64,000 nt of DNA from assembly GCA_964036665.1 (NCBI GenBank), contig OZ038527.1, forward strand, positions 6,200,001 through 6,264,000, read 5' to 3'. Numbering within the stretch: position 1 is the first letter of the stretch; the number at the start of each line of letters is the position of its first letter. The notes beneath the pieces were generated by a model, which saw only the letters and a list, made by a program, of their open reading frames with translations, was not told the origin of the DNA and did not search any database. The DNA is from Gordius sp. MW1. Its lineage: Eukaryota; Nematomorpha; Gordioida; Gordea; Gordiidae. A program made the translations under genes and the position numbers. Shown in pieces: positions 1-63,926 of this stretch.

Positions 1-3000
1 AACATTGATTAACATTTTTCCTGATTTAAAAATTAAACACTTTATAGGGCTTTGATAATGTAACGCGGTCGTCGTGCTATACAAACTTTAATAATATTGT
101 AAATAAGGGAGACACTCGAGAAAAATCGAATTGCAAACTTATAATATGACGGACATTTTTTTGAGCAACAAACATAACATATTTCAAAAGCTTTTAAATT
201 AAAAGGGTTTATCGGAAATTTTAAAGGTTGTTCAATAAATACCTTTAGTTTCGTCGCCATCCATGTCTGATTTATCGGGAGAGACCGGATCGTTAGCTAC
301 TTGTTTTCTAAAAATGGGGTTTTAAGATTATATTTCTTTAGCCCTAACTTTTATACATATCAATCATTGTTATAATCGATTTAAAAAATAATCAACAAAT
401 CAAAGACCTAGCAACAGTCTAGATTCGAGAGGAGGCAAGAATATAAATGAGTCGGGAGAGAAAAAATAACTATTTCGAAGTTTTTAACAAAATTGCATTA
501 AAACCCTTTTTTGAGGAGTTGTCTCATCCTAGATACGCCGATGCCTTAAATCAAACTAAAATCTATTAATCCGTTCGACAATTACAAATTAAACTGGCTA
601 AAAAATTAACTGCATATCAATTAATGATAGAATTTTGTTGAATCACATCAAATTTAAGCTTTTTACAACCGTGCTTTGTGCAAATTTGCCATGTAATGTC
701 CCATACAAACATTCAAATCAATACACTATATCCAATAAAACACTAATGGTAAAATTGCAATCGTTAGCTCGAGAATCTCAATAAGAAATGATTTGAAAGA
801 GTACTTTTTATCAGGCAAAAGATCACAATGGAAATCGTTAAATCCAACACGAAGTCGTGAATGTAATTGTTTTCTACCATCCTAATAAATAATATTATAG
901 TCTCAAAGTGCTGACAAAACTTTAACAATCAAGACAAGTAGATCAAAGCCCGGAATAACAAGAGTCAATTTTAATGAAACCCCGCTAGTCTTATAACATA
1001 AATTTTTAATTAACTCTTCGAATGTCTGGCTGTGTTTGGATTGAGATGATGTAGAGCTATTACACTTGGGCAGCCGTTCCATAAATTCCTTTACTTTAAG
1101 CATTACGTAATCAGCGTTGGCAAAATCGTAAAAACAAACATCGGTCACAGCGTTAGTCTCATTAGTGATGGGTCTCAAAAGGGCGTCTAATTTCTTGATT
1201 CGAACCACCATGGCTTGAGACATATCAGAATATTGAAGATTGGATTTGGGATTAGAATGATTGTTGGAGGCGTCCAATAAGGATGAAGAACGAGATGTCT
1301 TTTTCTCGGTATTCGTTGGTTTACTTTTGTGTCCTACGTCGTCATATACATTTACAACGATAATATAATAAAACTCGGGCCTTCGGCCCTCGTGGGAAGG
1401 GGGAGAAGGGAAGGGGAGTAGGGGAAGGGAAGAGGGGAAGGGAAGAGGGGAAGGGGGAACTCTTCTATACTCCGTATAAACGTAGCATATTTGCTATGCA
1501 ATTTATGGGCGAGAAAGGTGGGAAGGGGCGAGAATGCCTATAGGGGGTATTAGATGCAAAATAATTAGTTAATTAGTTATAGGCCCTTGTAGGGGAGGAC
1601 ATAGGGTAATTATCAATGTTAACCAATTCAAAAACGAAAAAAAATTTCGATTTATTTGGCCAATGGTCATTTTTTTATTGGTCAGTAGCCAGCGGGCGGT
1701 CAAAAATTCATATTATCATTGGTATTAACATGAACAAATATTAATTTAATTTAAAAAAATTAAAAAAAAAATTTGTCCCCTCACTGACTTGAACCCCACA
1801 CCTCCAGTTCACAAGCCGGCGCTATAACCACTATACCATGCTGGCTTTAAAATAGTAGAAGTTATTATGTTATTTATATAGATGATGAAATAATAAAGTT
1901 GTGTTTTATGTTTAGAAAATCAATATATATCGTCGGTCAGTAGCCAGCGGACGGTCAAAAAGTCATATTATCAATGGTATTAACAAAAACAAAAAATTAA
2001 TTTAATGTAAAAAAAAAATTAAAAAAAAGTTTTTTTTTAGTTTTAAAAAAGGGCTAAATTCTTAAACTACCAGCCCGATTCGCTCGAAACTTTACCCGTA
2101 GGTGCCCAGGGCGGCCGGGGGTAAAATAACCTTTTCAGATTCCTAAAATACCTTTTCATTTTAAAAATATCGGACATTTCCCTGCCACACGTGCGGTGTA
2201 ATATCTATGACACGTAGAAAAATTTTACTAATTATATAAACTTACGCGCGCCATCTAATAAAGTACAATTCGTGTCTGAGTTTAATAGTAGATTCAATTT
2301 AATTAGAAATAACGGGCTATGCTTATACCTTTGAAGGAGGTTTCGAATTTTGTGTTAGTTTCTATCGATATATTTTATCGTAAATTAGAATCTAATACCT
2401 ATATTATTTTTTTAAATATTACTTTTTAGGTTTTCTATGAAATCACAATCTAATTAAATGAAATATATTAACCCAATAAAAAAATATATATGCATTTATA
2501 AGGTTAAAAATATATATTACATAGTTGGCTGTCTGTTAGACCATCTATAATAAATTTTTAGGTTATATATAAAATTTGGCCAATGGTCATTTTTTTCATT
2601 GGTAAGCAGCCAGGACACGGTAAAAGTGGATATAAATTCATAAGTCAAAAAAAACGAGAAAAAAAAAATTTCGAATCACATTTTGGCCAATGGTCATTTT
2701 TTCCATCGGTCAGGAGCCAGCGGACGGCCAAAAAGTCATAATAGCAATGGTAGTAACAGGAACAATCATAATAGTCAAAAAAAAACGAAAAAATAAACTC
2801 GGATTCACATTTTGGCCAATGGTCATTTTTTTCCATTGGTCAGCAGCCAGCACACGGTAAAAGTGGATATAAATTCACAAGAGTAAAAAAAACGAAAAAA
2901 AAATTTTCGAATCACATTTTGGCCAATGGTCATTTTTTTCCATTGGTCAGCAGCCAGGACACAATAAAAGTGGATATAAATTCATAATAGTCAAAAAAAA

Positions 3001-6000
3001 CGAAATAAAAGTTTTCGAATCACATTTTGGCCAATGGTCATTTTATTTCATTGGTCAGCAGCCAGCGGACGGCCAAAAAGTCATAATAGCAATGGTAGGA
3101 ACAGGAACAATCATAATAGTCAAAAAAAACGAAAAAAATAATTTCGATTCACATTTTGGCCAATGGTCATTTTTTCCATCGGTCAGGAGCCAGCGGACGG
3201 CCAAAAAGTCATAATAGCAATGGTAGTAACAGGAACAATCATAATAGTCAAAAAAAACGAAAAAATAAACTCGGATGCACATTTTGGCCAATGGTCATTT
3301 TTTTCATTGGTCAGCAGCCAACGGACGGCCAAAAAGTCTTATTATCAATGATAGTAACAAGAACAATCATAAAAGTCAAAAAAAACTCCGGGATTCTAAC
3401 CCAAAAACTAGTTAAATTGCATAGCAATTAAAAGTAAACAACTTTTATTTATGTTTATTATATAACATTGGTCAGCAGCCAGCGGACGGCCAAAAAGTCA
3501 TAATAGCAATGGTAGAAACAGGAACAATTATAGTAGTCAAAAAAAACGAAAAAAATAATTTCGATTCACATTTTGGCCAATGGTCATTTTTTTCATTGGT
3601 CAGCAGCCAGCGGACGGCCAAAAATTCTTATTATCAATGATAGTAACAAGAACAATCATAAGAGTCAAAAAAAACTCCGGGATTCCAACCCCAAAACTAG
3701 TTAAATTGCATAGCAATTAAAAAGTAAACAACTTTTATTTATGTTTATTTATAACTAGTTAAATTGCATAGCATTAAAAGTAAACAACTTTTATATTTAT
3801 TATATAACCAAAACTAGTTAAATTGCATAGCAATTAAAAGTAAACAACTTTTATTTATGTTAATTATATAACTAGTTAAATTGCATAGCACAACTTTTAT
3901 CTATGTTTATTATATAATAGATAATTTAACAAATCTTATATATAACCATTATATAGCACACCGAGGGAGATAGAGATGAGGGGTGGGGCACCTCTTATGC
4001 ATAGCAATTAAAAATAACACAGCGAGGGAGATAGAGATGAGGGGTGGGGCACCTCTTTCTCATCCATTAATTTAAAAAAGCGATAACCTAATATACCCAA
4101 TGCAAATAGATAGGGTAACGGACGACGGACGACGGACGGACACCAAAAAACGATCCCATAAATTGCATAGCAATTAAAAATAAATTAGTGTGCGTTATAG
4201 TGTTAAACAAAACTTCGTTAACGGAACTTTTATGTTCACAACTAGTTCGATGCAAAATAAAACCTATCGTATGTTGGTTTTACTTTTATAGCCTATTTTG
4301 AATTCGCAGTTTATGATAGCCAGCATTTGGCCTTAAATTTATACCCTTATCATTTTACACAATCATGGGCGTAGCCAGAATTGGAATGGGGGGGGGATAA
4401 TGATTTAGGGAGAGACAAAATAATAATGTTTAGTAATGCAACTATCTTTTTCAGTCATGATTTGAAATTTTTAAGAATTTTTCGATTTAGAGGGGAGCAG
4501 CCGATCCTCCCTGCCACCCCCTGGCTACGCCTATGTACTCAATAATTATCGATACACAATGATGCTTGACCGTTATTTTTTAATTCTAATAAACCCGGCG
4601 TTTACCTAATCAAACGTTTTTATATGAGGAGTTATGTATTTTAAAAATCTTCCATGTTAAAAAGTATGGAAGTGCAATATATAAAACCTCAGGCTTGCTA
4701 AGAAAATTTGCGAGTAACGACGGGCTTAAATCTAAGAGGAAATTTAATAAGCCGAGAGCATAATATACAAAGCCACAACTTGTAACCATCGATTGCAATC
4801 GAAATATTTTTAAACTGATATTGATCCCTACATAAGTGACAATTAACCGAAAAAAAAACTTAAAATAGAATAAAGAGAGATTATAAACCTGCTATTCATT
4901 TAGGTGAAACCTTTTGACAGCATATCTAAATAAAAGGCCTCGTTTGATGACAAAACTAACATTATGACACAATGAGGGTCATAATGTTTAAATGTCGCCA
5001 TAACTAGTGTTGACTAGGAGAAGCTTTCAAAAATTTTACCCTTCATTTTATTATTATGCCCTTTTATCATTAAAATATGTATTTCTAACATTTTAAAAAT
5101 GTACCGAGCGCGGCGTTATAAAGGTATCCCACGGCGGCATAAGCCAGGGAACTCGAACCCGAAGGTTTAGGCAACGAAGTTGAAGAACTAGGGCCAACTT
5201 TATTTTGGTTGTTGGTCGCTTCAGCGTTAACTTTATAAATATGCAGGATGTCTTTGAGAGGTATAATGACTTGAACGAGTCCTTCGAGCTATGTGGAAAA
5301 ATCATGGAGGTTCATGTCAGATATGTGCACAGATAGAAGAAGAGTTTTATTTTATGATATAAATATAATTAACATTGAGACATAGCATTTAAAAGCGTTT
5401 TTCGTCTGATTAAAATGACAAGCGAAACTTCTTGTAAAAACAAATCGTAAAAACTTAAAAGTTAATATTGTAAAAATAAAATGAATATGTTTAAGTCGTT
5501 AAAATATTAATTTTACTTTGCTACCGAAACAAAGGTAATGCGTTGAAAGGTACAAAGTTCCAAAGGCCGAGGTGTGAGGATGTTTACGGTAAGAAGTCAA
5601 TAGATAGCATTGGGCGCTTCCATCCAATTTTTCCTCGACCGGCAAGCAAAACGTTGTCCTATGTAAAGTGTCCAAGATTTGAGTTCAAAATATGTGAAAA
5701 TTGTGAAATAATTAAAATTTAAAACTTTTTACAAAAAAAATAATAATTAAAGTAAAGAAACGATCGCCATTCAAAAATATAGGTTTAAATATGTGTATTT
5801 TTCCAAAGATGATAAAAAGAGCAAATTTTCTACTCACCACCTTGTTGCGAAAAAGTGTTTACTATTTGAAGATTGTACAAAATTTGCTTACCAAGTGTTT
5901 AGAACAAGTGAAAAGCACTTTATAAATTGACAAGATATTTTGGAAACAAAATCACCGCAAAAAGGTCATTATTAAAACGTTAAGTTCATACACAACTATT

Positions 6001-9000: not shown

Positions 9001-12000
9001 CAATTAAAGGATGCTTACAGTTGACGAGTTTTTCCGACGGGGCCATTTTAAAGAGTTGGCGAAACTTATGGTTGACAATTTTAAACTGGGTAGCTGCCTC
9101 CCGCCCTCTTTCCCTCACCCCTCGGGACACATCGGCCCCAGGGGTCAGGTCTAAAGAGGAGGGCGGGACCGTTGAGTTACTGACGTAAGCATTTTCACTA
9201 GTGACGTCATCAACGCTAGATTGATCACTGGAGCCGACCATGGTCTCCAATTTGCACTTGACTAGGGCAGTGGCATCTGCCTCCTCTTCCATACCAGCTA
9301 TTGATTTGTAAAAATAAAAAAATATGGCAATTTAAATTATAAAAAATATCAATAAGGTTAATCTTATTTCGATGCCAAATTACTGGTTAAAAAGTGGCAT
9401 ACTTTGAATAAAAATTCAGCAAGAGATTTAGGAGAAGTGGATTTTTAATTTCTTAAATTATCTTTGTAATAAACTAATATTTAAACGTGCAAAAATGAAA
9501 CAGAAATTAATTAAAATAGCAATTTTAAAAATGTATTAATTGTTTATATTTATCTTTAAAGTCAAGAATAAATTATCTTTACCAAATGATATATATGTTA
9601 AGTAAATAATAAACTAATATTTTCAATTTAGTAGTAGGGTTTATCGATAAAATATGTATTTTAGGTTAAAATAAAATTTAGAAGGAAGAATTTACAAGTG
9701 TCATCAAGGATAAGAATTGTTTTTTTTTTAAATTACCAATTAAAATTGTTTATTTCAACTGAGACATGATTGATTAAAATTGGTACGATAGCATAGCACC
9801 ATGGTGAAAGTATCGATCCGAACAAGAATTTGAATATTTCAACGCAGACGATAGATTGCCACGATTGGATTAATTTAATATTTTTTACGATGATAGATAA
9901 AAAAATGACAATATCCCCGAAATGGACAAGCAGCTTTGCGAAACTTTAAAAAAGATAGGTAATTAACAAGGCCAAGCAGACCTGTTGATATTATGGATTT
10001 TAGAGGTCATCCTATGAGTTAAAATAAAGAGGACTCAAAAAAACAATTACTAATATGACCTCCAGGCAAACCAGGTAATGTGTGGTCTTCTTTTAGATAT
10101 TACCATGATATTACTTTAAAAGTTTGATTCATAGTTTTAGTAACATGTTACTGCTTTCATTCTCAAGAAGACCAAACGGATCCCACATAAAATTCCAAAA
10201 AGGAATGTGATCACTATAATTTAACAAATAATTTATTTGGAATTTAGAAAAACTATTAAATTTTAAAATTTAGTGACGTTTGCCCATTTTTGGTTACTTT
10301 ATAATCTGCCTTTTAATATAGATTTGTCCCTTATACAATAAACTCGGGCCTTCGGCCCTCGTGGGAAGGGGGAGGGGAGAAGGGAAGGGGAGACGACTCA
10401 TCTTTACTTCGTATAAATGTATCATATTTGCTATGCAATTTATGGGCGAGAAAGGTGGGAAGGGGCGAGAATGCCTATAGGGGGGTGTTAAATGCCTAAT
10501 GATTAATTAATTATTTATACAAATTTTCCATTTATAGGCAAAATGTAATATAGGCAAAATGTAATATAGGCAAAATGTAATATAGGCAAGGGTTAGGGTT
10601 AGATTTAGTGTTTGCATCTAGTTGCGTATTACATTCGTTTTTATGGCCTTTAGTGATTATGGGTCTAACAAACATTATATTATAAAACAACACAATGTTA
10701 AGAATTTGCAGAATTGTTGGGAGAAATTTTTGTTGAATTTGAACAATTTTTAATTAAAAAAATCAAAAATTTGGCGAATGGTCATTTTTTCTCCATTGGT
10801 CAGTACTAACAGATACTCTATAAGTCAATGATAGCCAAAAAAACGGAAAAAAAAAATTTGATGCTCACTTTGGCCAATGATCATTTTTTTCCATCGGTCA
10901 GCAGCCAGCACACGGTAAAAATGGATATAAATTCATAAGAGTAAAAAAAACGAAAAAAAAATTTTTGAATCACATTTTGGCCAATGGTCATTTTATTCCA
11001 TTGGTCAACAGCCAGGACACGGTATAAGTGGATATAAATTCATAATAGTCAAAAAAAACGAAAAAAAACTTTCGAATCACATTTTGGCCAATGGTCATTT
11101 TATTCCATTGGTCAGCAGCCAGCGGACGGCCAAAAAGTCATAATAGCAATGGTAGGAACAGGAACAATCATAATAGTCAACAAAAAACGAAAAAAATTAT
11201 TTCGATTCACATTTTGGCCAATGGTCATTTTTTCCATCGGTCAGGAGCCAGCGGACGGCCAAAAAGTCATAATAGCAATGGTAGTAACAGGAATAAGCAC
11301 AATAGTCAAAAAAAAACGAAAAAATAAACTCGGATTCACATTTTGGCCAATGGTAATTTTTTTCATTGGTCAGCAGCCAGCGGACGGCCAAAATATTATC
11401 AATGATAGTAACAAGAACAATCGTAATAGTCAAACCTAAAACGAAAAAAAAGCTTGGAATCACATTTTGGCCCATGGCCATTTTTTCCATCGGTCAGCAG
11501 CCAGCGGACGGCCAAAAAGTCATAATAGCAATGGTAGTAACAGGAACAATCATAATAATCAAAAAAAACGAAAGAATAAACTTGGATTCACATTTTGGCC
11601 AATGGTCATTTTTTTCATTGGTCAGCAGCCAGCAGACGGCCAAAAAGTCATAATAGCAATGGTAGTAACAGGAACAATCATAATAGTCAAAAAAAACGAA
11701 AAAATAAACTTGGATTCACATTTTGGCCAATGGTCATTTTTTCTTTGGTCAGCAGCCAGTGGACGGCCGAAAGTCGTATTAGCAATGGTAGTAACAGGAA
11801 CAATCATAATAGTCAAAAAAAAAAAATAAAATAAACTTGGATTCACATATTGGCCAATGGTCATTTTTTTCATTGGTCAGCAGCCAGCAGACGGCCAAAA
11901 AGTCTTATTATCAATGGTAGTAACAAGAACAATTATAAGAGTCTAAAAAAACTCCGAGATTCTAACCCAAACCCTTGTAGTGGAGGGCATAGGGTAATTA

Positions 12001-32012: not shown

Positions 32013-32918
32013 ATGGATAAAGATAAAACTCCCTATACACCTATAGACAATTTTTCCAGGCCCAACACCAATGCTTCTTCTCCCACACATCCTGATCAGT
32101 TTAATGGTGCTACTAATCCTATTAGTACTGGACAAAACTCATCATATCCCTCTATAAATACATATAACATTATAAATTCACATAGCCCAACTCCCTTATA
32201 CATTCCTACTCATGGGAGCTCCACTAATAATGCTTACTTTCCTAATGCTCCTACTCTCAACCAAAATGCATCTCTTGCAGCTGAAAAACTTTTAGCACAG
32301 AGCAAAGAAACAGATGCATCTTATGATCCATCTGCTGTGGCCAAGAATTTTTCTAGACTTTGTCAATCTTACCTTGATAAGTCAGTTCCACACTCAACAC
32401 TAAGGTGGATTTTTACACTTCTGCTTTACATTGGGTTTGGGGTACGTATATTTACCACTAATGGCTGGTATATAATTACTTATGCCCTTGGAATATACCT
32501 TTTAAACTTGCTCATTGCTTTTCTGAGCCCTAAAATTGATCCAGCTGGTATGCAGGGGATGTATGGGGATGATCTTTATTTTGGTGGTTCACCCAACAGT
32601 TATTATGATGATGCCACATATTATGGGGACAATGAATCTTCCCTTCCCACCAAATCAGATGATGAATTTAGGCCATTCATTCGTCGTTTGCCAGAATTTA
32701 AGTTTTGGCTTTCTACAACCAAAGCCGTTATTGTAGCTTTCTTTTGTACACTCTTTGAAGCTTTTAATGTTCCCGTGTTTTGGCCCATCCTTGTCATGTA
32801 TTTTTTCATCCTATTTTTTATAACAATGAAGCGTCAAATACTTCACATGATCAAATATCGATATCTACCCTTTACCCATGGCAAAACCCGATACAACTCT
32901 GGCAAATCTGCAAAATAA
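32013..32918 (+). CDS. RER1: RER1, Golgi-to-ER retrieval receptor, with long N-terminal extension
   Basis: RER1 is a four-pass membrane protein of the early Golgi that returns escaped ER proteins and unassembled complex subunits to the ER. The 301-residue frame contains the whole family core from about residue 111: YLDKSVPHSTLRW, membrane segments near 132-149 and 152-171, then PTKSDDEFRPFIRRLPEFKFW, membrane segments near 236-252 and 254-271, and KRQILHMIKYRYLPFTHGK. Usual family length is near 196 residues. The excess is an Asn/Ser/Pro/Thr-rich N-terminus of about 110 residues and a Gly/Tyr/Asp-rich insert near 178-209 before the conserved EFRPF block. The start is secure: an in-frame TAA lies 6 nt upstream. 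An acceptor (TATTCTAG at 31984) suggests a 5'-UTR intron. The coding region has no intron. Confidence 0.96.
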   Translation: MDKDKTPYTPIDNFSRPNTNASSPTHPDQFNGATNPISTGQNSSYPSINTYNIINSHSPTPLYIPTHGSSTNNAYFPNAPTLNQNASLAAEKLLAQSKETDASYDPSAVAKNFSRLCQSYLDKSVPHSTLRWIFTLLLYIGFGVRIFTTNGWYIITYALGIYLLNLLIAFLSPKIDPAGMQGMYGDDLYFGGSPNSYYDDATYYGDNESSLPTKSDDEFRPFIRRLPEFKFWLSTTKAVIVAFFCTLFEAFNVPVFWPILVMYFFILFFITMKRQILHMIKYRYLPFTHGKTRYNSGKSAK

Positions 32919-38490: not shown

Positions 38491-38500
38491 AACCTAATAT
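38491..38500. repeat. Target-site duplication, left copy (foldback element)
   Basis: AACCTAATAT, identical to 41927-41936. Undisrupted relatives of this site (for example 42892-42901) read straight through to ACCCAATTCAAA. Confidence 0.85.
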
Positions 38501-38869
38501 AGTGTTGTTAATCTGCTAAATGGGTTCTGCTGGTATAGTGCTAAACCTGGTAATAGGCACATATCTCCTACCATTACCATCATTATTAAGCAGCACATGC
38601 TGCTTAACCCGGTTACTAGCATGGCAGATTAAAGTTGCCATGGTTGCTGGTTGGGAGAGATGTAAGTAACCGGGCATTTGGCAGATTGGATTGATATAAC
38701 CGTGGTATTGAGCAGGCTTGTTTTAAACTAAACATGGTTTTTAGCAAATTTATGCTTAGCTTACTATTAGAGTTGGTAGCTGTCATATAATGCTAATCAA
38801 TATTTAAATCATTTATTAATACAAAAATGGTGATTAAAAAATTTAAATATATTATAAATTTGCCCCGTT

Positions 38870-40105
38870 ATTTGCCCCCCCCCCCTAATTTTTTATCCTC
38901 TTTCTCACCAGGGGGGAGGGGGGGTGTTTTGCCCCCCCCCTTATTTTTTATCCTCTTTCTCACCAGGGGGGAGGGGGGGGGGGGTGTTTTGCCCCCCCCC
39001 ACACCCCCCCCCCCCCCCCCCTTTATTTTTTACCCTCTTTCTCACCAGGGGGAGGGGGGGGGGGGTGTTTTGCCCCCCCCCCCCAATTTTTTACGCTCTT
39101 TCTTACCAGGGGGGAGGGGGGGTGTTTTGCCCCCCCCCCCTTATTTTTTATCCTCTTTTTCACCAGATGGGAGGGGGGTGTTTTGCCCCCCCCCCCCTTA
39201 TTTTTTATCCTCTTTTTAACCAGAGGGGAGGGGGGGGGGTATTTTGCCCCCTCCTTTTTTTATCCTCTTTTTGACCAGAGGGGAGGGGGGGGGGGGGGTG
39301 TTTTGCCCCCCCCCCTATTTTTTATCCTCTTTATGACCAGAGGGGAGGGGGGTGTTTTGCCCCCCCCCCTAATTTTTTACGCTCTTTCTTGCCAGGGGGG
39401 AGGGGGGGGGGTGTTTTGACCCCCCCTTTTTTTTATCCTCTTTTTGACCAGATGGGAGGGGGGTGTTTTGCCCCCCCCCCCTTATATTTTATCCTCTTTT
39501 TGACCAGAGGGGAGGGGGGCTATTTTTTATCCTCTTTTTGACCAGAGGGGAGGGGGGGTGTTTTGCCCCCCCCCCCTTATTTTTTATCCTCTTTTTGACC
39601 AGAGGGGAGGGGGGGGTGTTTTGCCCCCTCCCCTATTTTTTACGCTTTTTCTCACCAGGGGCGGTGTTCACCAGGCTTATTTTTTATCCTCTTTCTGAAA
39701 AGTAGGCAGGGGGGGTCTGGCCCCCCCCCCCCTAATTTTTATCCTCTTTCTGACCAGGGGGGGTGTTTTGCCCCCTCCCCTCTTTTTTACGCTTTTTCTC
39801 ACCAGGGGGGGTGTTCATCAGGAGGGGGGGGGGGGTTTGCCCCCCCCCCCCTCATTTTTTATCCTCTTTCTGACAAGAGGTCAGGGAGGGGTCTTTTGCC
39901 CCCCCTAACTTTTTATCCTCTTTCTGACCAGAGGGGTGTTTTGCCCCCCCCCCTATTTTTTACGCTTTTTCTCACCAGGGGGGGGGGGTGTTTTGCCCCC
40001 TCCCCTTATTTTTTATCCTCTTTTTTACCAGTGGGCCTTCCCTGATTTTTACCCTGATTTTTAACCGGTGGTAGGAGAGGGGGGTCATTTGCCCCCCCCC
40101 CCCGA
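38870..40105 (+). repeat. Left arm array of C-run/G-run minisatellite
   Basis: About 20 units, each with a C-run, TATCCTCTTTCTCACCAGGG-type core and a GGGGG(A)GGGGG run followed by TGTTTTG. Homopolymer lengths vary from unit to unit. Long apparent reading frames here come from the repeats. Confidence 0.9.
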
Positions 40106-40119
40106 TTTTTTACAACTCA

Positions 40120-40449
40120 GATGCGTGATAATTGCCCTAACAATTGTCAATTTTCAAGCTAATTCAATTTTTTAAACGTTAATCTAGTGGTGAAAAATTA
40201 GCTAAAACACAAATTATATTTTGTTAACTTAGATGAGTGATAATTGTTATAATTGTCAATTTTATAGCTAATTTAATTTTTTAAACGTTAATCTAGTGGT
40301 AAAAAATTATCTAAAACACAAATTATATTTTGTTAACTTAGATGAGTGATAATTGTTATAATTGTCAATTTTCTAGCTAATTTAATTTTTTAAACGTTAA
40401 TCTAGTGGTAAAAAATTATCTAAAACACAAATTTTATTTTGTTAACTTA
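40120..40449. repeat. Central 109-bp tandem repeat, three copies
   Basis: GATGAGTGATAATTGTTATA recurs at 40120, 40232, 40341 and partially at 40450, with CGTTAATCTAGTGGTAAAAA in each unit. This separates the two GC-tract arms. Confidence 0.9.
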
Positions 40450-40475
40450 GATGAGTTACAAAACCCTAACCCTAG

Positions 40476-41572
40476 TGGGGGGGGCAAAACACTCCCCCTC
40501 CCCTCTGGTCAAAATAAGGATAAAAAGTAAGGGGGGCAGAACACCCCCCTTCCTCCCCTCCCCCCCTGGTGAGAAAGAAGATAAAAAATAAGGGGGGGGG
40601 GCAAAACACCCCCCTCCCCCCTGGTAAGAAACAGCGTAAAAAATTAGGGGGGGGGGCCAAACACCCCCCTGCCCCCTGGTGAGAAAAAGCGTAAAATAAG
40701 GGGGGGGGGCAAAACACCCCCCCCCCTCCTGCCTGGTCAAAATAAGAATAAAAAATAAGGGGGGGGGGCAAAACATCCCCCCCCCTCCCCTGGTGAGAAA
40801 GAGGATAAAAAATAAAGGGGGGGGGGGCAAAACACCCCCCCCCCCCCCCTCCCCCTGGTGAGAAAAAGCGTAAAAAATAAGGGGGGGGCAAAACACCCCC
40901 CCCCCTCCCCCCTGGTGAGAAAAAGCGTAAAAAATAGTGGTGGGGGGCAAAACACCCAAAATAAGGATAAAAAATAAGGGGGGGGGGCAAAACACCCCCC
41001 CCCCCTGGTGAGAAAGAGCGTAAAAAATTAGGGGGGGCAAAACACCCCCCCTCCCCCCTGGTGAGAAAGAGGATAAAAAATAAAGGGGGGGGGGGGCAAA
41101 AAAACACCCCCCCCCCCCTCCCCCCTGGTAAGAAAGAGCGTAAAAAATTAGGGGGGGGGCAAAACACCCCCCCCCCCCCCCCCTGGTAAGAAAGAGCGTA
41201 AAAAATTAGGGGGGGGGGAGGGCAAAACACTTCCCCCCCCCTCCCCCCTGGTGAGAAAGAGGATAAAAAATAAGGGGGGGGGGGCAAAACACCCCCCCCC
41301 CCCCTGGTAAGAAAGAGCGTAAAAAATTAGGGGGGGGGGCAAAACACCCCCCCCCCCCCCTCCCCCCTGGTGAGAAAGAGGATAAAAAATAAGGGGGGGG
41401 GGCAACACACCCCCCCCCCTCCCCTCTCGTCAAAAAGAGGATAAAAAATAAGGGGGGGGGGGCAAAACACCCCCCCCCCCCACCCCTGGTAAGAAAGAGG
41501 ATAAAAAATTAAGCCCCCCCCCCTCCGCCCTGGTGAGAAAGAGGATAAAAAATTAGGGGGGGGGCAAAATAA
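40476..41572 (-). repeat. Right arm array of C-run/G-run minisatellite (inverted)
   Basis: The same units as the left arm in the opposite orientation: CTGGTGAGAAAGAGGATAAA cores between G-runs and C-runs, about 20 copies. Confidence 0.9.
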
Positions 41573-41926
41573 CGGGACAAATTTATAATATATTTAAATT
41601 TTTTAATCACCATTTTTGTATTAATAAATGATTGAAAAATATTGATTAGCATTATATGGCAGCTACCAACTCTAATAGTAAGCTAAAATTAAATTTGCTA
41701 AAAACCATGTTTAGTTTAAAACGAGCCTGCTCAATACCACGGTTATATCAATCCTATCTGCCAAAAGCCCGGTTACTTACATCTCTTACAACCAAGCAAC
41801 CATGGTTGCCAGTGATAGCAACCGGGTTATTAAGCAGCATGATGCTGGTTATGATGATGGTAATGGGCGAGATGTATGCTACTACCATAGGTTATGGTAG
41901 TAGCATTTTGGCATTTTAACAACACT

Positions 41927-41936
41927 AACCTAATAT
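41927..41936. repeat. Target-site duplication, right copy (foldback element)
   Basis: AACCTAATAT, identical to 38491-38500. Confidence 0.85.
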
Positions 41937-42398: not shown

Positions 42399-42878
42399 TA
42401 GAGATGCACCGATACCACCATTTTGTGCCGATACCGATACCAGCCGATACCTAAGATTTTTTTGCCGATATCGATACCATGCCGATACTTATAATAAAAA
42501 AAATTTTTATACTAAAAAATATATGCAAATTAATAACTCCATAGTGTATCTAAAGAATCCATCTAAGGCTTAATATATAATAATTTTTAAAATAAAACAA
42601 TATATACTTAAAAGCGCAGTTATTCGGGACAGATGGTCAATGAGTTTATTATACTCCGCATAGAAATATTTATAGCCAATCAAATGAAACAATTTTAAAA
42701 AATTTAAAAAGTCCTCTATTTTTTAATGGTAGGAGATACTATAAATATAATTTTTTGAGTTTCATATTGAAAAAGGTATCGGCTTGGTAATTGCCGATAC
42801 TAACAAAGTATCGGCCGATACTTTTGGCAAGGTATCGGCGCCGATACCATGCCGATACTTGGTATCGGTGCATCTCTA
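42399..42878. mobile_element. Non-autonomous hAT-like element (TAGAGATGCACCGATACC)
   Basis: Ends TAGAGATGCACCGATACC and GGTATCGGTGCATCTCTA are perfect inverted repeats, with further GCCGATACC/GGTATCGGC repeats inside. GTATTT occurs on both sides (6 bp). No transposase remnant found. Related in its ends to the element at 56804. Confidence 0.8.
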
Positions 42879-43289
42879 GTATTTATCAATGTTAACCTAA
42901 TATACCCAATTCAAAGACGAAAAAATAAAATTTCGATTTATTTGGCCAATGGTCATTTTTTTCATTGGTCAGTAGCCAGCGGACGGTCAAAAATTCATAT
43001 TATCAATGTTATTAACAAGAACAAAATATTAATTTAATTTAAAAAAAAAAATTAAAAAAATTCGTCCTCTCCCGGGATTGAACTCAAGACCTCCAGGTCA
43101 TAAAGCTGGCGCCAATAACTTGGTGGACGACATACGGACGACGGACGGACAACAAAAAACGAGCCCATAAATTGCATAGCAATTAAAAGTAACCCAGAAC
43201 TCGTTTTTTATTAGTAAATTTGTGAATTGGGGAGAGTAAACCCTTTCAAAACTCGACCCAAAATGTTTATTTAAAAAAAACTCTGTTTA

Positions 43290-44637: not shown

Positions 44638-47600
44638 CTGAAGAGTGTAAATAAATATTACAGCCGATATTAATGTAAAAACGACAGTGATTTTATTAGT
44701 TGTTATATAGTATATAAGCGGAAATCAAAGGTTCCAAGATAATTAAAAATTTAGCAAAAATGTGATAGAAGAGGTGTCACTCACTATCTATTGGTTAAAC
44801 ATTGGTAAAACTGCAATTTTCCAATAAATAACTTCTAAATCAGCTTTGTTAATAAAACCTAGGAAACAATAAAACTTGGCCCGTCGCTTTTAAAATATCT
44901 TCGTGCAAATAGTCTATGACTAATATTCAAAGTCAAGATCAAAAACCTCAAGTCTGGTGATTATAAATAGGTTTTTTTAGAAATATTGAAAACGTTTTTT
45001 TAATACAAATATATATACACAAGGATAAATCTACATCATGGGAAGAGTCCGTTTTAAGGCCACCTAGACCTTAAGCATCTATATTACAAATCGTAGAAAA
45101 AAGTTCTCAGTTACATAACCATAGATAGACTAGAAATACGATAAACTGGCGAACAGCTGAGTAAGGGCGCATGGCGTACCTGCATTGGAATTAGAGGGGG
45201 AAAATTATGATTTAGGGACAGGCAAAATGATCATCTATTTTTAAATTTAGATATAATTTTAAAACATTTGAACAAATTATTGGATTTACCCTTAACTACG
45301 CCCATGTAAGGGTAAGTAAATATAACACCGTTCGTATAACCGCTAATGCTTCAAACAATTTGGATCATACTAAAATCTACAAGATTTATGCTTTATACGC
45401 CATGTTTATAGCATATATTAACAAATTAAACTCTCTTCATATGTTGATTAATAGATGTTAAACTAACGTATGGAATGGAAAGATAGTCCTTTAATGCTCT
45501 CATAATTATTCTCTCTTTCATAAATTTTGCAATTTATGACTTTACAAGGGAGCGCATATTTAAAAAATCCACCCAAAATGTCGGCCTAAGTTGCTCAATG
45601 CATAAATCAGCCGTTCGCCAGTCTATTATGGTTTTAGGGAGACCTTAAACATGAAAATTAATGATCCTAAAGCGCGTAGAAACATTTTTTCCACAGTTAT
45701 AAAACTTTCTTAATTTTTCGTTTGGCATTTATTTCGCCAACTACTACCTCTGGTCGTCCTCGCGGAGGGTAACCTCGATTTCGAACGTGGTCACGGTGTC
45801 GGGATCACATATCACGTGACCTAACGTGAAGGTACGATTACCTTTGACCCCGCCTCCGGCCTCACCACCCCCACGGGGTGTCGCCGCGGCGGTCAGCTGG
45901 ATACGAACGTGAACAACGCACCCTCGCGTCCCATATGGTTCGTACCGAGCGGCTTCCGAAACATCCCGAGCCAGGGACTCGGCAATCTCCGGAGGAATCA
46001 TGACGTTATTGTGAACGCTGGCGTCCGCTTCTTGCGACGACGACGTCATCGTGGTGGGAAATGATTGACGTCTGAAGGCGATCACTCCTCCTCCACTCCC
46101 GGTAATGGGGGGAGGCCCGCCCGTTGGGGTGTGAGGATGAGGATGATTGTGGGCGTGAGGGTTATGGGGGTTGGTGTAACGCTTGAGCGACCCGTCCAAA
46201 CTATTGACCGAAATGCCATCTGCGCACATAATTGAAAAATAAATTAGAACAAATTAATTTTATAAATATTTATAACCCATTTTTATTACCAAAACATAAA
46301 AATAGATAATGTAAATGGGAAAAGTAAAAATTTATAAAAAGTTAAATGTCATAATTAACATAAAGTTCCATAGGTAATGGCTGCATTGAAGATTAGATAT
46401 TTTACACATATATAATTTTGCAAAGTAATTTAAATTAATATGAAGATAATCTCTATGATTATAACGTTAAAAAATTTTCTCACTTGTAATGTAACCCAAG
46501 GGTTTGTAATAACAATAACTTCTAAGGGTGCGTCTTAATACGCGCTTTTGTAGCTAGCTTGAAAAAGCGAATGCATGTTAAAACATAGACGCGTCTTAAT
46601 ACGAGCGTCACGTCATTTTTGTAGTTTTGCCGTATCAATTCAACCGCGATCAACAAGCTACAAGCTATTGAGTAAGCTATTACTGTGACCTAATATGTTT
46701 ACATAGATAGACAAGATCAAGTAAAAACATTATTAAGAAGTGTGGAAAGGCACATGAAAAGCTCCACATGAATAATTGAATGGAATAAGCCTGGGGTTTG
46801 GTGGCCACATAATGCAACTTGGCTGGTAACTAGTATCAATTAAAATACTAACTTTAAAAGTGGATTATTGCAAAACTAAATGGAAAACACTCTGAAGAAA
46901 ATAGACATAGAGACAGAGAAGCAAAGAATTCTTAGGATTTGGAAAAGACATTCCTTGATTCTCTTCTTCAAGATTTTAAAGCCTTATCTGATCCCAATAA
47001 ATTTTTGTTAATAAATGTTTTACAAAACTTGTATTTTTACATGAATAAAGTATTAAAATTATTGGAATATGAACAAATATCTCATATCTCTCTAGCTTGT
47101 TGGGTTGAAAGATATTTTCAACTGTTAGGTATTGTTATTGTTAATCTCATAATCATATATAGGCAAAGCTTTATTATCAGTACATTTTGTAGTGAACAAA
47201 TACCCTAAACTATCTTTTCAGCCTTTTTAAGCTTTGTTTTTATAGGAGTTTTAAGTATACTAAATCTTAAAAATTTCACACTTTAAGTCTGGTAGGCTAA
47301 TAAATTTTTGTTTAAACTAAATGTTCTACATTATTTGAAAACTAATTGATGTTTATGATTTATTTTATATTAAATACTAATAAAATGGTATGTGTATTTT
47401 GAAGTATAAGCTTAATTATAGTTATTTACTAAACTTGACAATCCTAAACATTAATAACAATATATTAAGTTGATATTGTAGACAATAAAATGTATATTTA
47501 TTTACTAAACTTGACAATCCTAAACATTAATACAATATATTAAGTTGATAATCTATTTTTTATTTTCTAAACTTGACAATCCTAAACATTAATCTAATAT

Positions 47601-50600: not shown

Positions 50601-53600
50601 GAAAAAACTAAAAATTAAAAATTGTAGGTTTGGCCCCCCCCCCTGATTGAAATTTTAAAAGTTTCGCCTCCCCCCCCCCCAAACCAAAACCTGGCTACGT
50701 CCATGTCCCTGTCTAATCAATTAAATTTCATTTTTGATAAACATATTTTTACGATAAAATGTTTTTTAAAAGTGTACTGAATTATAGAGTTAGACGTCAT
50801 TTATAATAGGTTCATATGGAAAACATAACATTATACAAAGACATTTGGAATATATTAAAAATGTATTTAAAAAGGAGAGATTAATGTTTATTAAATGAAA
50901 GATTAAATTATTGAAGGAGAGATTAATGTTTATTAAATGATGAAAGAGGCGTTAAATAACAGAGATTAGATAAGGTATATACATAAGAAGTGGGGTCAGC
51001 ATAAGGAGGCTGGATTATTACCAAAAGTTCCGAGAAGATTGAATACATTAAAATATAAAGCTAGAAAAAATGCAACCATTTCATTTTTAAGTTAAACTGT
51101 TTGAACCAAAACAAAATCTAGTGGAACGTTATTGTAAGTAAAGGAAACCTTTAAATTAGTATGCCCTAATTCGCAGTTAATTAAATTAAAGATTAATTTT
51201 CTAATTTAAAAGATTTAAAAATAAATAGCCCTATAAATATTTGAGTGATATAAACAGCTGACTTGGCGCTCTAAGTGTATTTGCCTGAAGTGAGGGGGAA
51301 TAGAAGAGTAACTACCTCCTTCCCCCCCCCCCTTTCCCTCCGTTAAAACTAAACGCGCACACTATCCCCCCTTTCCCTCCGTTAATTTGCCAAAAGCATA
51401 TAAAAATCAATAATAATAAAAAGGGGTTGAGGGATGATCTCCTCCACTCCCGCCCCCTAATAATACCAACTCAGCGGTGGAAGGGTAAGATAGAGGGGTA
51501 GGGGTTTAACGTATAATCAATATAAAAATAAAAAACTCGCTACGTAATTCAGAGGTAATTTTTATTTAGTATGGTTAGTAATAATGGAAAACTTTGTTAA
51601 AAATAGTAATTAATTTAGGCGTCCTGTTACGTCTGCGCATCTAAAAATGGCACAATTACCAGCGATATGCAATAGCTCCGCTATTGCCTGTTACGAACGC
51701 GCATCTAAAAATGATAAAATTTAAAAACTTACTTTTGGTTAAGGTAAAATGTTATTAAATTGGGATAATTCCTATTGTAGCTTATAATAAAAAATTGCAT
51801 AGAAATTATTAAAAATTTTTACATAGAAATTAATGGGAAATAATAATAAAAATTAAAAAAATCCTTACGACGAAACTATCAGCGACATGCAATAGCTCCG
51901 CTATTGCCTGTTACGACCGCGCATCTAAAACTGTCACAGGTATCATAAAGATATATCAAAAAATTTACATGTGCTAAATTGTTCCATTGGTCAGTACCAA
52001 AAGACAATCTATTAATACATAAGAGTCAAAGCCAAATGGTCATTTTTTTCATTGGTCACTACCAACAGATACTCTATAAGTCAATGTTAGCCAAAAAAAC
52101 GAGGAAACAAATTTCACTTCATACTTTGGCCAATGGGCATTTTTTCCCAATGGTTAGTAGCCAGCGGACGGCCAAAAAGTCATATTATTAATGGTATTAA
52201 CAGAAACAATCATAAAAGTCAAAAAAAACGAAAAAAAATTTTCGATTCACATTTTGGCCAAATGGTCATTTTTTTCATTGGTCACTACCAACAGATACTC
52301 TATAAGTCAATGTTAGCCAAAAAAACGAGGAAAAAAATTTTACTTCATACTTTGGCCAATGGTCATTTTTTTCCAGTGGTCAGTAGCCAGAGGACGGCCA
52401 AAAAGGCAGATTATCAATGGTAGTAACATGAACAATCATAATAGGCGGAAAAAAGCGAAAAAATAAACTTGGATTCACATTTTGGCCAAATGGTCATTTT
52501 TTTCCATTGGTCAGCAGCCAGCGGACGGCCAAAAAGTCTTATTATCAATGGTAGTAACAGGAACAAACATAATAGTCAAAAAAAAACCCGGGATTCGAAC
52601 CCAAAAACTGGTTAAATTAACAAAAATTAAAAGTAAACAAAAAAGACATTCGGTGCAAGACATCCACGTTTTTTTCATTGGTCAGCAGCCAACGGACGGC
52701 CAAAAAGAAATATTATCAATGGTAGTAACAGGAACAATCATAAGAGGCAAAAAAAACGCAAAAAAAAATTTCGTTTAACATTTTGGCCAAATGGTCATTT
52801 TTTTACAGTGGTCAGTAGCCAGCGGACGGCCAAAAAGTCATATTATCAATGGTAGTAACAGTTACAATAATAATATTCAAAAAAAACCCCGAGATTCGAA
52901 CCCAAAAACTGGTTAAATTAACAAAAATTAAAAGTGCGTATCCACGTTCGGTTCGGTGCGTGACATCCACGATTCCATTGGTCAGCAGTTAACGGACGGC
53001 CAAAAAGTCTTATTATCAATGGTAGGAACAAGAACAATCATAAGAGTCAAAAAAAAACGCAAAAATAATTTCGCTTCACACTTTGGCCAAATGGTCATTT
53101 TTTTATTGGTCAGCACCCAACGGACGGCCAAAAAGTCTTATTATCAATGGTAGTAACAGGAACAATCATAATAGAAAAAAAAAATCCCGGGATTCGAACC
53201 CAAAAACTGGTTAAATTAAATTAACAAATAACAAAAATTAAAAGTGCGTGACATCCACGTTCGGTGCGTGACATTCGGAAAATGGAAAGTGAGCCCATAA
53301 ATTGCATAGCAATTAATACAACTGGAAAAGAAACCTTGATTTTTGAAATTACACCTATTTTAAGGACCGCTTTATGTTGGTTAACCAGAAAAACTCCACA
53401 AACCGATTATGCCCAAAATTAAACGAAATCAAGTTTTGAAATTTAATTCAAAATCTAAAGTATTGATTTGCATGGTTTATTTAGACGGTATTTAATCTCA
53501 TTTGACCATAACGGTGGAAAGTGGGAAATATGTGCGAACAATAATGAAAAGTGTGCAATCATAATTAGATACGACATAATAATCTCGTGCGGTATTTCAT

Positions 53601-62390: not shown

Positions 62391-63926
62391 TTAATTGCTA
62401 TGCAATTTATGGGCTCACTTTCCATTTTCCGAAGTCACGTCACGTCACGTCACGCACCGAACGTGGATACCGAACGTGGATGTCACGCACTTTTAATTTT
62501 TGTTAATTTAACCAGTTTTTGTTTATAACCAGTTTTTGGGTTCGAATCCCGGGATTTTTTTTTACTATTATGATTGTTCCTGTTACTACCATTGATAATA
62601 AGACTTTTTGGCCGTCCGTTGGGTGCTGACCAATAAAAAAAAATCACCATTTGGCCAAAGTGTGAAGCGAAATTTTTTTTGCGTTTTTTTTTTGACTCTT
62701 ATGATTGTTCTTGTTCCTACCATTGATAATAAGACTTTTTGGCCGTCCGTTGGCTGCTGACCAATGAAAAAAACGTGGATGTCTTGCACCGAATGTCTTT
62801 TTTGTTTACTTTTAATTTTTGTTAATTTAACCAGTTTTTGGGTTCGAATCCCGGGTTTTTTTTTGACTATTATGTTTGTTCCTGTTACTACCATTGATAA
62901 TAAGACTTTTTGGCCGTCCGCTGGCTGCTGACCACTGGAAAAAAATGACCATTTGGCCAAAATGTGAATCCAAGTTTATTTTTTCGCTTTTTTCCGCCTA
63001 TTATGATTGTTCATGTTACTACCATTGATAATCTGACTTTTTGGCCGTCCTCTGGCTACTGACCACTGGAAAAAATGGTCAGTGTCCGAAAGTGTGAAGC
63101 GAAATTTTTTTCCCCGTTTTTTTGACTCTTATGATTGTTCCTGTTACTACCATTGATAATATGACTTTTTGGCCGTCCGCTGGCTACTGACCATTGGAAA
63201 AAAATGACCAGTGTCCGAAAGTGTGAAGCGAAATTTTTTCCCCGTTTTTTTTGACTCTTATGATTGTTCCTGTTACTACCATTGATAATATGACTTTTTG
63301 GCCGTCCGCTGGCTACTGACCATTGGAAAAATTGACCATTGGCCAAAGTATGAAGTAAAATTTTTTTCCTCGTTTTTTTGGCTAACATTGACTTATAGAG
63401 TATCTGTTGGTAGTGACCAATGAAAAAAATGACCATTTGGCCAAAATGTGAATCGAAATTTTTTTTAGTTTTTTTTGACTCTTATGTATTAATAGATTGT
63501 CTTTTGGTACTGACCAATGGAACAATTTAGCACATGTAAATTTTTTGATATATCTTTATGATACCTGTGACAGTTTTAGATGCGCGGTCGTAACAGGCAA
63601 TAGCGGAGCTATTGCATGTCGCTGATAGTTTCGTCGTAAGGATTTTTTTAATTTTTATTTCCCATTAATTTCTATGTAAAAAATTTTAATAATTTCTATG
63701 CAATTTTTTATTATAAGCTACAATAGGAATTATCCCAATTTAATAACATTTTACCTTAACCAAAAGTAAGTTTTTAAATTTTATCATTTTTAGATGCGCG
63801 TTCGTAACAGGCAATAGCGGAGCTATTGCATATCGCTGGTAATTGTGCCATTTTTAGATGCGCAGACGTAACAGGACGCCTAAATTAATTACTATTTTTA
63901 ACAAAGTTTTCCATTATTACTAACCA
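62391..63926 (-). mobile_element. Array-bearing element, copy E (inverted relative to copy D)
   Basis: Begins AATTGCTATGCAATTTATGG then GCTCACTTTCCATTTTCCG, and ends CAAAGTTTTCCATTATTACT. Its parts appear in exactly the reverse order and strand of 51573-53316. It contains about nine units of the 110-125 bp repeat (62510-63540), the two GCAATAGCGGAGCTATTGC palindromes and two GGGTTCGAATCCCGGG blocks. No coding capacity. Confidence 0.75.
62510..63540 (-). repeat. Tandem array of CCAAT-hairpin unit (array 5, inverted)
   Basis: Units read TTTTTGGCCGTCCGTTGGCT, then TGACCAATGAAAAAAATGAC and CATTTGGCCAAA, the complement of the other arrays. Confidence 0.88.

Follow-up and report, generated by a model that had tools for sequence, protein, structure and literature searches.

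A foldback element with mirrored GC-tract arrays in Gordius sp. MW1, very probably a non-autonomous hAT transposon

The element and its surroundings

A stretch of 64,000 nucleotides from Gordius sp. MW1 (Nematomorpha; assembly GCA_964036665.1, contig OZ038527.1, positions 6,200,001 to 6,264,000), here called the window, contains an insertion of 3,428 bp at window positions 38500-41927 that begins with TAGTG at its 5' end, finishes with CACTA at its 3' end, has mirrored arms and holds no recognisable gene. The window lies on contig C1 of a genome of 211.8 Mb in 12 contigs. Its arms are long, inverted and composed mainly of tandem repeats, which places it in the Foldback structural class. Its parts, with the nearby site that lacks it, are as follows.

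38492..38499, no strand: target-site duplication, left, 8 bp, ACCTAATA
38500..38511, plus strand: terminal inverted repeat (TIR), left, TAGTGTTGTTAA; first 10 bases common to 39/39 complete copies
38512..38547, plus strand: left-specific subterminal stretch, 36 bp, without counterpart at the right end
38548..38870, plus strand: left arm, non-repetitive portion, 87.3% identity to the right arm
38871..40113, plus strand: left GC-tract array; unit of a C run, an AT-rich core of ~25 bp, a G run and TGTTTTG
40114..40456, no strand: central tandem repeat, 109-bp unit, 3.1 copies
40476..41569, minus strand: right GC-tract array, inverted
41570..41887, minus strand: right arm, non-repetitive portion
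41888..41915, minus strand: right-specific subterminal stretch, 28 bp
41916..41927, minus strand: TIR, right, TTAACAACACTA
41928..41935, no strand: target-site duplication, right, 8 bp, ACCTAATA
42879..42961, plus strand: related empty site, the flanking repeat again but without the insertion

Each inverted side of the window copy is ~1.5 kb long and consists mostly of repeat arrays. A preliminary description of this DNA had proposed a foldback transposon inserted as a unit, and the mirrored arms, the duplications and the empty site bear this out; the undisrupted target site that it had placed nearby is confirmed at 42879-42961, which matches the joined flanks of the element at 96.4% over 83 bp. 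Its 109-bp tandem repeat in the middle stands as well, and is homologous to DNA adjoining the transposase gene of a longer relative (L057, below); it also resembles the repeat unit in the arms of a related hAT. Two further claims held in part. The termini are inverted, as had been said, but not continuously for about 370 bp: the 12 terminal bases match exactly, the ends then differ to base 49 on the left and base 41 on the right, and left bases 49-371 match the opposite arm at 87.3%, giving an arm of ~320 bp. Both arms do turn into GC-tract arrays, although in place of ~20 units per arm our motif counts 16 on the left and 11 on the right, with degenerate units missed.

The description's statement that the element codes for nothing agrees with the lack of a recognisable gene. 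Open frames of up to 271 codons run within an array; the spacing between adjacent array units leaves remainders of 0, 1 and 2 modulo three in 200, 265 and 254 cases, respectively, and since it is thus spread over all three frames rather than kept to multiples of three, we do not regard these frames as evidence of coding and reject coding in the arrays. Beside the central repeat, at 40464-40475, the sequence CCCTAACCCTAG resembles by eye two telomere-type units. A telomere-repeat origin of the middle of the element was considered and dropped, as exact CCCTAA/TTAGGG units are nowhere repeated in tandem in the 39 complete copies. A short hairpin, also noted by eye, takes in part of the right subterminal stretch (41888..41915) together with the arm's edge.

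Another insertion, of 480 bp (window 42399-42878), with ends TAGAGATGCACCGATA and TATCGGTGCATCTCTA and a 6-bp repeat, GTATTT, on its flanks, was noted by eye in the next copy of the element's flanking repeat. Arrays of a unit of ~107-130 bp, also seen at multiples of that length, lie at window 2766-3755, 10837-11952, 52031-53219 and 62526-63519; they carry CCAATGGTCAT...CATTGGTCAGCAGCC, recur across the window and are related to the flanks of the element. Likely host genes are found at 32013-32918 on the plus strand (Rer1 family, E 6.1e-71) and at 45744-46229 on the minus strand (RTP801_C match, E 3.7e-13).

Copies, target-site duplications and recent movement

A genome search with the left end of the window element had 930 candidates, of which 40 were scored; the resulting 40 left-end matches, the window copy included, were all fetched. 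L043 has no right arm within the fetched stretch and was excluded, which leaves 39 complete copies of 2,038-5,003 bp (median 2,937). Every one begins with TAGTG, and 38/39 finish with CACTA, the remaining copy (L009) having CACTG. Copies without shared ends, which the preliminary description had named as evidence that would count against it, did not appear among these 39: the only departures are the last base of L009 and a small deletion in L031, whose left end lacks ~24 bp from base 11, after TAGTGTTGTT. The 8-bp duplication of L031 is perfect, and the loss may postdate the insertion.

A perfect 8-bp duplication flanks 37/39 complete copies and a perfect 10-bp duplication only four, the window copy among them. 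The duplication is therefore 8 bp and not the 10 bp first proposed; the window copy shows a 10-bp match because its target happened to have an A before and a T after the 8-mer. Two copies, L024 and L027, have a common duplication and common flanks (98.6% over 5.6 kb) and so represent one insertion duplicated together with its surroundings; once they are merged, 36 distinct perfect duplications remain. These two copies lie in opposite orientation ~1.5 Mb apart (C4:1678000-1683600 and C4:185400-191000), and hAT matches at C4:197041, 199605, 315152 and 317671 are mirrored by others at C4:1671666, 1669198, 1539257 and 1536834, so that this part of C4 is a large inverted duplication, either real or an effect of assembly. 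Both elements are 5.0 kb long, probably from an insert among the array units, and a 159-residue open stretch inside the insert of L027 has no Pfam match.

Exact matches to the 12-mer end number 532 in the genome (257+275) and those to its reversed control 60 (27+33), so elements with these ends outnumber the copies studied here. The TIR of hAT elements starts with the consensus YARNG, and the short TIR TAGTGTTGTTAA fits this consensus.

Some copies moved recently. Within each of the groups L037/L042/L044, L039/L041/L046 and L015/L021 the arms (371 bp per end, gaps uncounted) differ by no substitution and the duplications are different, so the members inserted separately and not long ago. Full-length alignment of L015 with L021 (2,029 aligned bases) shows 4 substitutions and 16 indels; members of the L037 group are 21-25 substitutions and 45-47 indels apart. 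The arrays thus seem to change faster than the arms, a comparison to be read with caution because repetitive DNA is difficult to align and sequencing easily miscounts tract lengths. That an element's own arms exchange sequence by gene conversion was also considered, and rejected: left and right arms are on average 0.912 identical within the 39 copies and arms of different copies 0.909 (741 pairs), so that no sign of conversion is seen.

Transposase-bearing relatives and lineage

Of the first 100 listed occurrences of the end, two on C2, separated by 7.16 kb, led to a longer relative, L057 (7,159 bp), whose arms are 88.9% (left) and 88.7% (right) identical to those of the window element. Its interior holds a decayed gene on the minus strand, in pieces that read as a hAT transposase, and an insertion nested at 1453-3719 with its own duplication, ATTCTTGG, interrupts that gene. 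L058, on C1, is 92% identical to L057 over 1.9 kb. This stretch covers the greater part of the gene, leaving aside the nested insertion, which L058 lacks. Both have the same junction between the 5' arm and the gene, and their alignment passes from the arm through this junction into the gene at 88-93%. The C-terminal piece of the L058 gene matches Dimer_Tnp_hAT (PF05699) in Pfam with E 7.7e-20 and the Hermes transposase with E 1.3e-12.

Remnants of such an interior are also found in shorter copies. In L059 (1,753 bp), which is flanked by a perfect duplication, ATTATAAC, the two arms enclose the 5' region of the gene with ~130 bases of putative coding sequence. When compared with the interior of L057, 13 of the 39 copies prove to keep the DNA upstream of the transposase gene, and in five of these (L033-L036 and L038), all with perfect 8-bp duplications, the match continues ~32 bases inward from the putative start codon. 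The 109-bp repeat from beside the 3' end of the L057 gene is kept in 9/39, the window copy included, so that internal DNA of an L057-type hAT is present in 22 of the 39.

Several observations weigh against a hAT origin. Neither of the two L057 regions is found in 17/39 copies, and the copies were chosen as those closest to the left end of the window element, a non-random sample in which L011 and L032 have no perfect duplication. L057 itself lacks a target-site duplication (CTATATAC on one side, GTTATAGG on the other), perhaps through age or because two elements recombined, and L058 has no right end. The mid-protein pieces have no hAT match in Pfam, a PDB search with one of them came back empty, and their hAT likeness was judged by eye; a BED zinc finger was not seen in the decayed gene, and no intact transposase came to light between such ends. 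Duplications made by hAT elements of the Ac group follow the preference nTnnnnAn. Here T at position 2 and A at position 7 were counted 34 times in 72 (P 0.009), the best of eight positions, and multiplying by eight gives 0.07, so the preference is not significant. The central TA of the duplications, at 21/72, is not enriched.

Taken together, the ends, the hAT gene in relatives, the internal remnants and the 8-bp duplications make the window element very probably a non-autonomous foldback hAT transposon, presumably moved in trans. What decides for hAT rather than Mutator is the transposase in relatives with the same arms, because a duplication of 8 bp is also within the range of Mutator-like elements (MULEs). 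The lineage, which the preliminary description had held could not be named, can thus be given, and its leaning from the duplication length towards Mutator-like or FB-type elements gives way to the 8-bp duplication and the hAT gene. Its proposed search for an autonomous relative with the same ends succeeded to the extent of the decayed gene in L057 and L058 and failed to bring out an intact transposase.

We infer that the element is mobilised in trans by an L057-type hAT or a close relative. Such a transposase would recognise the 12-bp ends together with subterminal DNA and move the element by cut and paste, making an 8-bp duplication at the new site. The element would have derived from a larger hAT by loss of the transposase gene, the arms of the parent already carrying short GC-tract arrays, and the arrays would have lengthened after that loss, leading to the wide variation in unit number now observed. 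The order of these events is likewise inferred.

The nearest other hAT in the genome aligns with a 124-residue piece of L057 at 65% identity over 120 residues and has three copies, at C3:2265039, C6:8986202 and C8:35007553. At C3:2265039 it is flanked by an inverted pair, 96.6% identical over 1,077 bp, with arrays of a 119-bp unit. This unit matches the central repeat of the window element at 82% over 45 bp and 78% over 51 bp (best E 6e-8); because 1/199 shuffled controls reached E 1e-4, these E-values are somewhat flattering in AT-rich DNA. By eye, plus-strand arrays lie on one side of the transposase and minus-strand arrays on the other in at least four places:

C3:2262008-2268717, second hAT lineage, inverted 119-bp arrays
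C6:8984280-8988825, second hAT lineage, inverted 119-bp arrays
C8:35004483-35010946, second hAT lineage, inverted 119-bp arrays
C1:26485700-26492716 (transposase at C1:26489544), second hAT lineage, inverted 119-bp arrays

Satellite arms therefore recur in this group. A further place, C3:19224815-19228442, has arrays of the 119-bp type with no transposase between them among the matches listed.

The arrays, alternative readings and known foldback elements

Both tracts are recognisable in 1,261 array units, and the core between them is 24-29 bp long in 1,151 of these. C runs reach 18 bases and G tracts 29, the motif's lower limits being 4 for C and 3 for G; exact tract lengths and unit counts may be wrong in the assembly. 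Among 1,286 cores of equal length, 14 of 25 positions are more than 97% identical, and positions 1, 10, 11, 14, 18 and 20 are the most variable, a conservation inflated by the motif used to pick units, which allowed three substitutions. Recognised units per copy range, among the 39, from 5 to 25 on the left and from 1 to 21 on the right. The potential to form stems, proposed in the preliminary description, agrees with the prediction for the single 221-base array piece that was folded: its predicted structure, in which G run, TGTTTTG and C run make a hairpin, is more stable than dinucleotide shuffles (z -3.09, with 1/200 shuffles as stable).

Recognition of the left end of Hermes involves several BED domains on subterminal repeats (PMC10368747), the Herves transposase binds a subterminal motif (PMC3143072), and the tandem repeats in the arms of Galileo hold further binding sites for the THAP domain of its transposase (PMC3688188). 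By analogy with the Galileo arm repeats and the Hermes subterminal repeats, the array cores may serve as extra transposase-binding sites, the role that we favour for them, though tentatively and at less than even odds; otherwise the arrays would be tolerated products of slippage. We give even chances to the view that the arrays have no role, being products of slippage or unequal exchange that are carried along while the hAT ends alone suffice. The variation in unit number and tract length is what this view would lead one to expect, and perfect duplications flank L033 and L038, in whose right arrays the motif recognises 1 and 2 units, respectively; this argues that long arrays on both sides are not required, unless they shrank after insertion. 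Against it, the length of the core is kept, many core positions hardly vary (which the selection motif favours), and repeat arms are common to two related hAT lineages. The conservation of core length and positions is equally well explained if the units share a recent common origin.

The other alternatives concern what the element is. That it is a MULE, or a foldback element of the Rehavkus type, is very improbable. Foldback elements are often Mutator-like, as with Tm1 (PMC3169594) and as stated in PMC4079207; the range published for MULE duplications is 8-11 bp (PMC6446971), so that 8 bp, at its lower edge, does not discriminate; and with 150 of 202 candidates scored the genome has at least 128 matches to the MULE domain PF10551. 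None of the 128 listed matches, checked by eye, lies inside a fetched copy, and the relatives with these arms carry a hAT and not a MULE transposase, pieces of which persist in copies with perfect duplications. Rehavkus itself is disfavoured by the 8-bp rather than 9-bp duplication and by repeat units that lie on both sides, not before one TIR.

We also consider it highly unlikely that L057 and L058 carry the gene as a passenger, brought by a separate hAT that landed in a foldback element of another lineage, its pieces being inherited by the derivatives. Nesting does happen, as L057 demonstrates, and the 17 copies without a hAT interior are as this account would have them. A scan of L057 for inner inverted ends (at least 9/12 bases) with an exact 8-bp duplication returned 8 pairs, though, none of which spans the whole gene and of which only the nested insertion has more than 9 matches. 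The 5' arm-gene junction is the same in both relatives, the ends and 8-bp duplications fit hAT, and the related hAT at C3:2265039 is likewise flanked by inverted arrays. Finally, homopolymer-rich arrays are hard to assemble, but it is extremely unlikely that the inverted arrangement is an artefact, because misassembly would not yield 39 copies of one architecture with the same ends, 37 of them with perfect duplications and 36 of these distinct.

The TU elements of sea urchin, too, are of foldback form, with arms of tandem repeats and target-site duplications of 8 bp. The window element resembles members of the hAT superfamily such as Hermes, Herves and BuT2 in its 8-bp duplications, its ~12-bp TIR and the Dimer_Tnp_hAT transposase of its relatives. 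It differs in the extent of its inverted sides, hAT TIRs being described as 10-25 bp (PMC3942097), and long mirrored tandem-repeat arms are unusual in a hAT element. Galileo, a P superfamily foldback of Drosophila, likewise has long, internally repetitive inverted arms (PMC3688188), although its transposase belongs to another superfamily and the likeness is one of described structure. Tm1, a Mutator/Foldback element of root-knot nematodes, has composite inverted arms with tandem motifs and mostly non-autonomous copies beside one transposase-bearing element, but 9-bp duplications and a MULE transposase of the Phantom type (PMC3169594). Tetris of Drosophila virilis shares the variable number of arm repeats, the non-autonomous state and duplications of 8-10 bp; no transposase was found for it, and its authors based its assignment to Mutator on duplication length and earlier suggestions (PMC4079207). 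Rehavkus has a minisatellite near one end, but only before the 3' TIR, together with a 9-bp duplication and a PHD-finger transposase (PMC6446971).

Foldback elements have usually been assigned to Mutator, sometimes without a transposase, as with Tetris (PMC4079207), and in the literature searched those with a known transposase are Mutator-like or P-like (PMC3169594, PMC4079207, PMC3688188). No description of a foldback hAT was found among the papers listed from that literature, which took in neither most subscription journals nor Repbase. A hAT transposase here, alongside P in Galileo and Mutator in Tm1, supports repeated evolution of the foldback form. It is conceivable, though rather unlikely and argued by analogy, that this hAT clade repeatedly built mirrored satellite arms, of GC-tract units here and 119-bp units in the sister lineage, as docking arrays for a multimeric transposase, and that competition for transposase would drive satellite growth and seed satellite DNA across the genome. 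The copies in Gordius, recent ones among them and with 5-25 recognised left units, form a natural series in which a benefit of arm repeats to transposition could be tested, and they may illustrate a possible route from transposons to satellite DNA.

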